Assembly (NCBI RefSeq): GCF_900100655.1
Contig: NZ_FNCE01000001.1
Coordinates: 372,001-436,000, forward strand
Length of the DNA: 64,000 nucleotides
DNA from: Limimonas halophila
GTDB lineage: Bacteria > Pseudomonadota > Alphaproteobacteria > Kiloniellales > Rhodovibrionaceae
Direction of reading: 5' to 3'
The notes under the pieces were generated by a model. That model ran no database searches, was not told the origin of the DNA, and saw only the letters and a list, made by a program, of their open reading frames with translations. Each line of letters opens with the position of its first letter. The stretch's first letter is position 1. Positions 12,599-16,127 of the stretch are shown one piece after another. The position numbers and the translations under genes are program-made.

Positions 12599-12613
12599 GG
12601 CGCCTCAGGCGCC
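12599..12613. terminator. Stem-loop built around the pgsA stop codon
   Basis: GGCGCC-TCA-GGCGCC, a perfect 6-bp dyad whose 3-base centre is the pgsA stop (TGA on the minus strand). It lies in the 27-base gap between the convergent opgG and pgsA genes. There is no T-run; a role in ending either transcript is inferred from position. Confidence 0.35.
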
Positions 12614-13171
12614 GTGGGCGGTCTGCATGCGCTTCAGGCCGTTGATGAGGTAGTCGGCCCCGGTCACGAGCGTCAGGCCCCCGGCCGCCCAGAGGCCGAT
12701 CTCGCCGAGCAGGCGCACGGGCAGGAACCCCGGCCCGGCCTCGCCGACGATGAGCACGCCGAGGGCCACCATCTGCAGCGTGGTCTTCCACTTGGACATG
12801 CGCGTCACCGGCATGGGCACGCGGATCTCGGCCAGGTGCTCACGCAGGCCGGACACCAGGATCTCGCGGCACAGGATCACCAGCGCCGGCAGCACCACCA
12901 GCCCGGTGACGCGCTGGCTCGCCACCAGCATCACCACCACGGCGGCGACCATCAGCTTGTCGGCGATGGGGTCCAGGAAGCGGCCCACGGGCGAGGTGTC
13001 GCCGTACTTGCGCGCCAGGTGGCCGTCCAGCCAGTCAGTCACCGCCGCTGCGACGAAGAGCACGAGCGCCAGCCAGCTCGCCCAGAAGCCCGTGAAGTAG
13101 AGAAGCCCCACGAGCAGCGGAATGACGGCGATGCGCGAGAGGGTGAGCGTGTTGGGCAGGGTCAGCGTCAT
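12605..13171 (-). CDS. pgsA: CDP-diacylglycerol-glycerol-3-phosphate 3-phosphatidyltransferase
   Basis: An integral membrane enzyme of 188 residues making phosphatidylglycerophosphate, the committed step to acidic phospholipids. The CDP-alcohol phosphotransferase motif is complete: DG-HL-AR, eight residues, G-RFL-D-PIA-D. The start MTLTLPNTLTLSR at 13171 fits the family; the longer frame to 13255 would run into uvrC. It follows uvrC on the same strand with a 76-base gap, a common alphaproteobacterial pairing. Confidence 0.94.
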   Translation of the reverse strand: MTLTLPNTLTLSRIAVIPLLVGLLYFTGFWASWLALVLFVAAAVTDWLDGHLARKYGDTSPVGRFLDPIADKLMVAAVVVMLVASQRVTGLVVLPALVILCREILVSGLREHLAEIRVPMPVTRMSKWKTTLQMVALGVLIVGEAGPGFLPVRLLGEIGLWAAGGLTLVTGADYLINGLKRMQTAHGA

Positions 13172-13247
13172 GGGGCGGGCTCCGCGTCGGTGGCGGCGGT
13201 CCGCCCCGTTGTAGCCAGCACGGCCCCGCCGGCCAAGCGCCGCCCGC

Positions 13248-15254
13248 TCAGCCACTGTTGTAGAAGTCGTACACGCGCCGCGCCACGGTCTCGCTGATGC
13301 CCTCCACGGCCTCCAGGTCGGCCAGGCCCGCGCGCGCCACCTCGCGCGCCGAGCCGAAGTGGAGCAGCAGCGCGCGCTTGCGCTTGGCGCCGATTCCGGG
13401 GATGTCGTCCAGGCTGGAGCGCAGCCGCGCCTTCTGGCGGCCCGAGCGGTGCGTGCCCACGGCGAAGCGGTGGGCCTCTTCCGAAAGCCGCGAGATCAGG
13501 TAGCTGACGGGATCGTCCTTGGGCAGCAGCATGGGCTCGCGCTCGGGCAGCACGATCTCCTCGCGCCCGGCCTCGCGCTCCGGCCCCTTGGCGACGCCCG
13601 CCACCGCCACGTCGGTGATCCCCAGCTCCGCGAAGACCTCCAGCGCCACGTTGAGCTGGCCGCGCCCGCCGTCCACGAGCACAAGGTCGGGCCAGCTGCC
13701 GCGCTCGTTGTCCGGGTCCTCCTTGACCGCGCGACGGAAGCGCCGGGTCAGCACCTCGCGCATCATGGCGTAGTCGTCGCCCTGCTCGGCGTCGCTGCCA
13801 CCCTCGCCCCTGATCTTGAAGGTGCGGTAGTGCTTCCTCATGAAGCCCTCGGGCCCGGCGACGATCATGGCGCCGTAGGGCTCGCTGCCCTGGATGTGGC
13901 TGTTGTCGTAGACCTCGATGCGCTCGGGCGTGGCCGGCAGGCCCAGGCGCTCCGCCAGGCCGTCGAGCTGCTTGCGCTGGCTGCTGCTTTCCGCGAGCTG
14001 GCGCGCCAGGGCCTCGCGCGCGTTGGTGAGGGCGTGGTCCACCAGCCGCCGCTTGTCGCCGCGCTGGGGCACGCGGATGTCCACCTTGGCGTCCGCCCGC
14101 TGGCTCAGCGCCTCGCGCAGCGTCTCGCGGTCGTGCGGCCCGTGGCTGAGCAGCAGCAGGCGCGGCACCGGCTTGTTGTCGTAGAATTGCGCCAGGAAGG
14201 CCGCGAGGATGGCGCCGGGGCGCATGTCGTCGTCGTGGGCGGGGAAGTAGGCGCGGTTGCCGTAGTTGCGCCCGGCGCGCACGAAAAACACCTGGAGGCA
14301 GGTCTGCCCGCCTTCCTGGTGCAGCGCCACCACGTCGGCGTCATCGACGCCCGTGACGTTGACGTCCTGGTGGGCCTGGATGTGGGCGAGGGCGCGCAGG
14401 CGGTCGCGGTAGATCGCCGCCGTCTCGAAGTCCTGCTCCGCCGCCGCGGCGTCCATGGCGGCCTTGAGGTCTTGCTGAATGGCCTGATCCCGCCCGGCCA
14501 GGAAGTCGCGCGCCTGCTGCACCAGGGCTTCGTACTCGGGCTTGGAGATGTAATCCACGCACGGGGCGCTGCAGCGCTTGATGTGGTACATCAGGCACGG
14601 GCGCTGGCGGTTGGAAAAAACGTGGTCCGTGCACGAGCGCAGCAGGAAGGCCTTTTCCAGCGCCGTGATCGTGCGGTTGGTCGCCCCGGCGGAGGCGAAC
14701 GGGCCGTAGTAGTCGCCCGGCTGCGTCTGCGCGCCCCGGTGCTTCACGATGCGCGGGAAGTCGTGGTCCCCTGTCAGCAGGATGTAGGGGAAGGACTTGT
14801 CGTCGCGCAGCTGGACGTTGAACGGCGGCGAGAAGCGCTTGACCAGGTTGCTTTCCAGCAGCAGCGCCTCGACCTCGGTGTGGGTCGTGACGATCTCCAG
14901 GCTGGCGGTCTGCGCCACCATGCGCCGCAGCCGGTAGGGCAGGCGCTGCAGCTGCGTGTAGGTGGTGACGCGGCGCTTCAGGTTGCGCGCCTTGCCCACA
15001 TACAGCGGCTCGCCCGTGCGGCTGAGCATGCGGTAGACGCCCGGCCCCGTGGGCAGCGTCTTCACCGCGCGGCGCAGCACATCCAGGCCACGCTCGGTGG
15101 ACACGGCCGGGTGCTCGCCGCCGGCTTCCGTCGAGCCGTCGAGCGTGGCGATCTGGGTGAAAGAATCGCCCGGGTCCTCCTCGGGGCGCATGCCGGAGCG
15201 CTTGCCGCCGGCCGAGGGGTCGTCGGGCCGCCGCTGTTGGGTGGGTCGCGTCAT
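13248..15254 (-). CDS. uvrC: Excinuclease ABC subunit C
   Basis: UvrC makes the two incisions flanking DNA lesions bound by UvrB. The 668-residue protein has an extra hydrophilic N-terminal stretch of about 60 residues, then the GIY-YIG domain (GPGVYRML...LYVGKARNLKRR), a UVR motif (AAMDAAAAEQDFETAAIYRDRL), the RNase H-like 3' nuclease region (EVYDNSHIQGS, DLVLVDGGRGQL), and C-terminal helix-hairpin-helix repeats (IPGIGAKRKRALL). All domains are intact. Its partner uvrB is at 21023-23290. Confidence 0.95.
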   Translation of the reverse strand: MTRPTQQRRPDDPSAGGKRSGMRPEEDPGDSFTQIATLDGSTEAGGEHPAVSTERGLDVLRRAVKTLPTGPGVYRMLSRTGEPLYVGKARNLKRRVTTYTQLQRLPYRLRRMVAQTASLEIVTTHTEVEALLLESNLVKRFSPPFNVQLRDDKSFPYILLTGDHDFPRIVKHRGAQTQPGDYYGPFASAGATNRTITALEKAFLLRSCTDHVFSNRQRPCLMYHIKRCSAPCVDYISKPEYEALVQQARDFLAGRDQAIQQDLKAAMDAAAAEQDFETAAIYRDRLRALAHIQAHQDVNVTGVDDADVVALHQEGGQTCLQVFFVRAGRNYGNRAYFPAHDDDMRPGAILAAFLAQFYDNKPVPRLLLLSHGPHDRETLREALSQRADAKVDIRVPQRGDKRRLVDHALTNAREALARQLAESSSQRKQLDGLAERLGLPATPERIEVYDNSHIQGSEPYGAMIVAGPEGFMRKHYRTFKIRGEGGSDAEQGDDYAMMREVLTRRFRRAVKEDPDNERGSWPDLVLVDGGRGQLNVALEVFAELGITDVAVAGVAKGPEREAGREEIVLPEREPMLLPKDDPVSYLISRLSEEAHRFAVGTHRSGRQKARLRSSLDDIPGIGAKRKRALLLHFGSAREVARAGLADLEAVEGISETVARRVYDFYNSG

Positions 15255-15734
15255 CGCATCGCTATTTTTGCTGTCCGGGGCACGGCGTCAACGCGCAGGC
15301 TCGCGTTGGCTCAGCCGTTCGTGTGAATCGGGCCGCTGCGCCGATTCCTGTCACGCGGTGGAAACATCCACGGAAGTTGTGGACAAACGTGTGGAAAGCT
15401 GCGTGATGAAACCGCCAAGCCCCCGGTGTGCGGCGGTTCGCGCTGGCGTGCCCAATCACTGGGCAGATTTTCCAAGTCCCTGAAAAACGGAAATTATGGG
15501 GGCGTCAAGCGGGTTTGGGCGGGATGCGCCTGCGAATTTGAACCACCGGTATGAGCGCCGTCCCGCTTCCGCCCGGGCTGTGGACAAAATCCGGGTGTTG
15601 TGTGGAAAACGAGCGCGCTCAGGCGGTTGCGCCCCGACGTTGCGACACACGCACGACGTACCCCCGAAGCCCCAATAGGGCCGGGGCGGGACGGCTTCCG
15701 CCCGGCGGTGGAAAGGCGGCTGGGAACGCCGCGA
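15255..15734. other. Gene-free stretch with paired DnaA-box-like sites
   Basis: 480 bases with no credible gene between uvrC and folB. It holds TGTGGACAA (15378-15386) followed by TGTGGAAAG (15390-15398), and about 200 bases on TGTGGACAA (15579-15587) followed by TGTGGAAAA (15601-15609), all in the same orientation. TGTGGACAA is the complement of TTGTCCACA, one base from the E. coli DnaA box and the preferred box in high-GC actinobacteria. Two GANTC sites lie at about 15325 and 15343, and a locally AT-richer patch at 15465-15500. This could be a replication origin or a DnaA-controlled promoter region; the sequence alone does not decide. Confidence 0.4.
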
Positions 15735-16127
15735 TCAGTCGCTCCGGGTGTGCTCCACCTCGACGCCGACGGAGCTGGTGTCGGCGTAGAGGTCCAGCTT
15801 CTCGATGCGCACGCGGGCGCTGCGGGCACGCGGGTCGTGGAAACAGGCCTGGGCGATGCGCTCGGCCAGGGTTTCCAGCAGCTTCGGCCGCTCGGTGCGC
15901 ACCAGGTGGCGGATGGTCGGAACGATGTCGCGGTAGTCCACGACGTGCGCGGGGTCGTCGTCGGCCGGATGTTCGGGCCGCACCGTGAGGTCCACGTTGA
16001 CGCGGATGCGCTGAGCCTTGGCCTGCTCGCTCGCCGTGACGCCGAGGTGGCCGCTGACCACGAGATCGCGCACCAGGATGCGTTGATCGCTGACTTGCGT
16101 TGGGATCCGCGCGGATTCCGCCGGCAT
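15735..16127 (-). CDS. folB: Dihydroneopterin aldolase
   Basis: A 130-residue FolB-type enzyme of folate synthesis, which converts dihydroneopterin to hydroxymethyldihydropterin. Landmarks are ILVRDLVVSGHLGVTASEQAKAQRI, a VDYRDI segment and LLETLAERIAQACF with the conserved glutamate. The ATG at 16127 has AGGAGGGGC directly upstream. Preceded 29 bases upstream by an SDR of the pteridine reductase type, which fits a role in pterin metabolism. Confidence 0.9.
   Translation of the reverse strand: MPAESARIPTQVSDQRILVRDLVVSGHLGVTASEQAKAQRIRVNVDLTVRPEHPADDDPAHVVDYRDIVPTIRHLVRTERPKLLETLAERIAQACFHDPRARSARVRIEKLDLYADTSSVGVEVEHTRSD

Follow-up and report, generated by a model that had tools for sequence, protein, structure and literature searches.

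A candidate DARS-type DnaA-binding element upstream of uvrC in Limimonas halophila and many other Alphaproteobacteria

DnaA boxes in the gap between uvrC and a folB-like gene

The analyzed stretch of DNA (64,000 nucleotides of the Limimonas halophila genome, here called the window) contains uvrC, pgsA and a folB-like gene, all encoded on the minus strand (Table 1); the open frame of the folB-like gene extends further 5' than 16082. The distance between uvrC and the folB-like gene was measured as 480 bases, in agreement with the original prediction of a gene-free stretch of this length flanked by uvrC and folB. The gap has a GC content of 64%, compared to about 70% in its surroundings, and the AT-richer patch that had been noticed there was located at about 15455-15494 (42% GC). 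No Rfam or tRNA matches were found in the window, and the reading as an RNA element was dropped. The gap contains neither LexA sites (GTTC-N7-GTTC or GAAC-N7-GAAC) nor CtrA sites (TTAA-N7-TTAA). Two GANTC (CcrM) sites, at 15325 and 15343, are present between the DnaA triad described below and uvrC. GANTC sites had been reported to lie between two clusters of boxes, but the two in this gap are both located between the first cluster and uvrC.

The predicted DnaA-box-like sites are all present on the plus strand, with TGTGGACAA at 15378 and 15579, TGTGGAAAG at 15390 and TGTGGAAAA at 15601. When read on the sense strand of uvrC, these four sites are TTGTCCACA, CTTTCCACA, TTGTCCACA and TTTTCCACA, in one orientation throughout. 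Their inner spacings are 12 and 22 bases as described, although only the former corresponds to about one helical turn and the latter to about two. The sites had been regarded as two paired clusters; they are real, but the clusters are not equivalent, as a conserved three-box geometry is found only in the proximal one. A third, inverted box at 15364-15372 had been overlooked. The resulting triad reads CTTTCCACA-CGT-TTGTCCACA-ACTTC-CGTGGATGT on the minus strand and lies 110 bp from the uvrC start (15254). Boxes II and III are arranged in tandem with the 3-bp gap of DARS1 and DARS2, the DnaA-reactivating sequences of E. coli, which recharge the replication initiator DnaA, and box I is placed in the opposite orientation at the DARS distance of 5 bp. 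The window boxes are degenerate (box II, TTGTCCACA; box I, ACATCCACG).

The motif TGTGGAAAR occurs three times in the window against 0.31 expected, and none of 100 shuffles reached a count as high. A genome-wide count, which had been proposed as a check, gave 15 occurrences of TGTGGACAA in the 3.04-Mb assembly, the only pair within 1 kb being the one in this gap. In a scan of 813 kb (contig C1 plus 160 kb of C7), a 300-base span with four near-consensus DnaA boxes was found only here and in the region upstream of hemE. Moreover, the triad is the sole match to its pattern in the window with up to 3 mismatches allowed (0/100 shuffles) and in the whole genome with up to 2 mismatches. Outside the window, three near-consensus DnaA boxes with 12- and 20-bp steps were observed at G000:C1:214845-214885.

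Table 1. Coordinates of genes and sites at the uvrC locus of the window
Feature	Coordinates	Strand	Basis or remark
pgsA, downstream of uvrC	12605..13177	-	TIGR00560, 147 bits
uvrC, excinuclease ABC subunit C	13248..15254	-	TIGR00194, 527.7 bits
DARS-like core triad, III-3bp-II-5bp-inverted I, towards uvrC	15364..15398	-	Pattern search
DnaA box I, plus strand ACATCCACG, minus strand CGTGGATGT	15364..15372	+	Inverted relative to II and III; read from sequence
DnaA box II, TTGTCCACA (TTATCCACA in most relatives)	15378..15386	-	Sequence
DnaA box III, CTTTCCACA, 3 bp from box II	15390..15398	-	Sequence
Palindrome TGCCCAgtgatTGGGCA, relative of conserved TGCCTAWWWWWTAGGCA	15449..15465	.	At -79, same fixed distance as in relatives
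Degenerate IHF-consensus site TTTCAGGGACTTG, 2 mismatches	15473..15485	-	At conserved -99 position
Distal DnaA box pair, TTTTCCACA-13bp-TTGTCCACA	15579..15609	-	Without inverted box, not DARS geometry
folB-like gene, far side of gap	15735..16082	-	TIGR00526 folB domain above cut-off; TIGR00525 folB below cut-off

Conservation of the triad upstream of uvrC

The uvrC gene was fetched from 38 genomes, nearly all representing different families of the same order, and the upstream region was examined in the 30 in which the locus was available. In 29 of these 30 genomes, a near-consensus DnaA box lies upstream of uvrC and is oriented as in the window. These 29 copies were anchored on that one box alone, without using the spacing, and the alignment showed CCACA 3 bp before it, the box itself (TTATCCACA), 5 bp, and then an inverted cGTGGATA. 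Box III was present at 3 bp in 29/29 copies (background about 1.4%) and inverted box I at 5 bp in 27/29 (background about 0.6%), these related genomes being non-independent samples; the full triad was present in 27/30 genomes of the order. When 26 copies from the class were added to the 29 of the order, the 3-bp gap was observed in 55/55 related elements and inverted box I at 5 bp from box II in 53/55, but the 26 class copies had been chosen by the triad pattern, and therefore the spacing is tested independently only by the 29 order copies. The distal pair (15579/15601) was not seen upstream of uvrC in the order genomes examined, and it is possibly a lineage-specific accessory binding or titration site.

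At the level of the class, when up to 2 mismatches were allowed, 188 of 385 genomes contained the triad and none contained the reversed pattern. Among 80 triad-bearing class genomes, 66 (spanning 33 families by our own count from the tables) have the triad no more than 2 kb upstream of uvrC and in the same orientation in every case (66/66); in some of the other 14, the contig with the triad does not contain uvrC, which precludes an assessment of linkage. The distance between the triad and the aligned uvrC start has a median of 122 bp and ranges from 23 to 1253 bp. Examples of triads upstream of uvrC include records of Pelagibius, Telmatospirillum, Rickettsiales and Paracoccus. The triad is absent from about half of the sampled class genomes, including several large families, and therefore it is not essential to the class. 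In the phylum, 137 of 299 genomes contain the triad with up to 1 mismatch, and the reversed control gave 0. The proximal cluster is a deeply conserved three-site element and an extragenic unit.

Accessory sites and candidate proteins

Further sites were found at fixed offsets, counted from box II. Among the 55 related elements, the IHF consensus is perfect in 23 (0.3 expected) and has at most one mismatch in 45, nearly all at -98 to -100. A conserved palindromic 15-mer, TGCCTAWWWWWTAGGCA, fits the Fis consensus GNNYRNNWNNYRNNC; the Fis-type 15-mer is perfect in 41/55 elements (2.8 expected), 35 of these at -78. In 106 copies from outside Alphaproteobacteria, the most common position of the Fis-type 15-mer is also -78 (31 copies), and the IHF consensus appears in the opposite orientation at about -110 (25 perfect, 0.5 expected). 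The window copy has retained the palindrome, and its IHF site is weakened (2 mismatches). A TTGAC at about -122 was considered as the -35 element of uvrC and rejected; no consistent -10 is present at 17 bp from it, because the IHF site occupies that spot. GANTC occurs inside the element in only 12/55 copies at -46 and in 7-11/55 between boxes II and I, and is absent there in the window; its conservation inside the element is suggestive at most.

The genome contains a dnaA gene and an IHF-alpha-type gene scoring above cut-off. An additional ORF resembling the AAA+ part of DnaA carries a clamp-binding-like QLPLDLP motif (read by eye) and likely encodes HdaA. No stand-alone Fis was found in the genome, all HTH_8 matches being located in open frames of 263-770 residues.

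Triads beyond Alphaproteobacteria

In Enterobacterales, the same triad is found upstream of uvrB (DARS1), pointing away from uvrB. Other beta- and gammaproteobacterial genomes have the triad beside priA or xseA (both confirmed by family scan) and beside a HemW-like gene (named by eye). The priA-linked loci, in which a replication restart gene adjoins the DnaA element, belong to Lysobacterales, Burkholderiales and some other Gammaproteobacteria. At L104 and 17 other beta/gamma loci, the triad is accompanied by IHF- and Fis-type sites beside priA. Two exact triads in Duganella (L127) and three in Alcaligenaceae (L161) lie within 300-450 bp of each other, which recalls the repeated cores of DARS2. 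In three genomes (G452, G499 and G655), overlapping triads on both strands produce a symmetric four-box III-II-I-IV arrangement.

Alternative explanations

The probability that DnaA-like 9-mers clustered here by chance is negligible. The imperfect window copy of the triad would fit such an origin by accident, but the shuffled windows contained no triad, the reversed control pattern was found in 0/385 and 0/299 genomes, and the triad is phylogenetically conserved; cross-family conservation and the reversed controls refute chance for the proximal triad. For the distal pair only, chance or lineage-specific use is conceivable. The original prediction also considered the region as an origin or a DnaA-titrating/regulated region, of which the latter is supported in a broad sense and the former is not supported by GC skew. 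A replication origin, active or cryptic, would agree with DnaA boxes and an IHF-type site within a gene-free gap, but it is extremely improbable. The gap is not oriC, because the cumulative GC skew of the contig increases monotonically over its full length of 653 kb without a switch at the site (387 kb). In a complete genome of the same family (G002), the skew switches sign in the interval from about 0.2 to 0.4 Mb and once more at about 2.5 Mb; hemE is located at 0.374 Mb and uvrC at 0.976 Mb, which places the switch near hemE and about 0.6 Mb from uvrC. The gap also has no strongly AT-rich unwinding stretch, its lowest 40-base block (15455-15494) being that of 42% GC. A better DnaA-box cluster was looked for near hemE, and four near-consensus boxes were found within about 125 bases upstream of this gene in the same genome; the hemE upstream region is the probable oriC of Limimonas halophila. 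This cluster (L003 1271-1394; G000:C7 about 66.69-66.81 kb) adjoins a ttgatcagaaaatatggggg stretch. Skew was computed from fetched stretches, and that of the hemE contig (C7) is too noisy in the draft assembly to place the origin alone.

It is unlikely that the element is just a DnaA-controlled uvrC-pgsA promoter, at which DnaA, with IHF and another factor, would repress or activate transcription in step with replication and without nucleotide exchange. The short median distance to the aligned uvrC start and the invariable orientation agree with such a promoter, as do the repression of E. coli uvrB by DnaA through the DARS1 boxes (PMC6015884) and the preference of E. coli DnaA, at the genes it regulates, for paired boxes separated by 2-3 bp (PMC11317965). 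However, the distance to the aligned start varies by more than a kilobase (23 to 1253 bp), ordinary double-box targets need no inverted box I at exactly 5 bp, and the same composite is found beside unrelated genes, even pointing away from uvrB in Enterobacterales. Promoter control can also coexist with a DARS role, as it does in E. coli, and may be an extra function. A passive DnaA-titration site, either datA-like or a simple sink, appears still less credible and is very improbable. Clustered boxes bind DnaA, and the four boxes here make up a notable share of the strong boxes of the genome, but titration needs no fixed spacing, orientation or phasing of IHF and palindrome sites, all of which are conserved here, and the published datA has a different box set with IHF between the boxes (PMC5742627). 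Fixed spacing and orientation, the inverted third box, the phased accessory sites and independence from the neighboring gene are better explained by a nucleoprotein machine of the DARS kind than by a simple promoter site, a sink or an origin.

Proposed function and implications

Judging from sequence, the proximal cluster is probably the DnaA-binding core of a DARS-type element that is conserved upstream of uvrC in many Alphaproteobacteria, and we infer that this uvrC-linked element may reactivate DnaA. DnaA-ADP, which would be made after initiation by an HdaA/RIDA system, is predicted to form a complex on boxes I-III in which the molecules at boxes I and II touch head to head. Bending by IHF and a palindrome-binding factor would then drive a conformational change; ADP would leave, and the released apo-DnaA would take up ATP again, so that the level of DnaA-ATP rises before the next initiation. 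Because the IHF half of the element has decayed in this high-GC genome, the window copy may act more like E. coli DARS1, which needs no IHF, or may be weak. Transcription of uvrC-pgsA may additionally be modulated by DnaA bound at the element. The position of the site also suits regulation of uvrC, and such control, in addition to the DARS role, is possible by analogy with E. coli, in which DARS1 overlaps uvrBp3 (PMC6015884).

DARS-mediated reactivation of DnaA has been investigated in E. coli. The presence of a fixed uvrC-side candidate across much of the class makes DnaA-ADP recycling in Alphaproteobacteria directly testable. It likewise prompts one to ask why elements that recharge DnaA are located beside genes of excision repair and fork restart, and what protein recognizes the Fis-like palindrome if a stand-alone Fis is not detected. 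It is conceivable, though on balance doubtful, that an element consisting of IHF site, palindrome and DARS core was already present in the ancestor of Alpha-, Beta- and Gammaproteobacteria and has been kept beside genes for DNA repair and replication restart (uvrC, uvrB, priA, xseA and mutH). If so, DnaA recycling at repair loci would be of ancient origin, and a non-Fis protein would fill the role of Fis in Alphaproteobacteria.

The general idea of DARS-like elements in proteobacteria is not new: a passage of a review (PMC10380432), citing Fujimitsu 2009, mentions conservation of DARS1/2-like sequences in many proteobacterial species. Another paper, however, describes the DARS2 core as specific to gammaproteobacteria related to E. 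coli (PMC4245941). What appears to be new is the uvrC-linked form together with its accessory sites, and no report of this form was found in the open-access subset of the literature.

Comparison with known systems

The alphaproteobacterial oriC on the hemE side likewise has DnaA boxes in a gene-free gap, but the window site is wrongly placed by GC skew and lacks an AT-rich unwinding element. The datA locus of E. coli is also a DnaA-box cluster with IHF; it uses boxes 2, 3 and 7 and promotes hydrolysis of DnaA-bound ATP (PMC5742627). In contrast, the boxes in the window have the geometry of the DARS core, with the IHF-type site located outside them rather than in between.

The DARS core comprises boxes I-III, which are spaced identically in DARS1 and DARS2; box I has the opposite orientation, and the DnaA molecules bound to boxes I and II make a head-to-head contact (PMC5742627). 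E. coli DARS2, located upstream of mutH, contains two box sets with the same 3/5 spacing as found here, and IHF and Fis sites belong to the functional element (PMC4245941). It differs from the window copy in the order of its parts (core, IHF, Fis, inferred from described mutants, versus core, palindrome, IHF in the window) and in size (455 bp versus about 150 bp), and no Fis protein was found in the present genome. The double boxes of DARS1 and DARS2 published from ChIP-seq match the double-box parts of these triads (PMC11317965).

DARS1 of E. coli MG1655, which lies between bioD and uvrB, reads TAATACACA-TGG-TTATCCACA-GGAAT-AGTGGATAA on the same strand. Its neighboring gene is uvrB instead of uvrC, with the opposite orientation of the element relative to the gene; most alphaproteobacterial copies differ from it in the presence of an IHF consensus plus a Fis-like palindrome, placed at a fixed distance, and the window copy in the degeneracy of its boxes. 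Both elements are compact, adjoin a gene of the UvrABC nuclease and share the arrangement of their three DnaA boxes, in orientation as well as in the 3/5-bp spacing.
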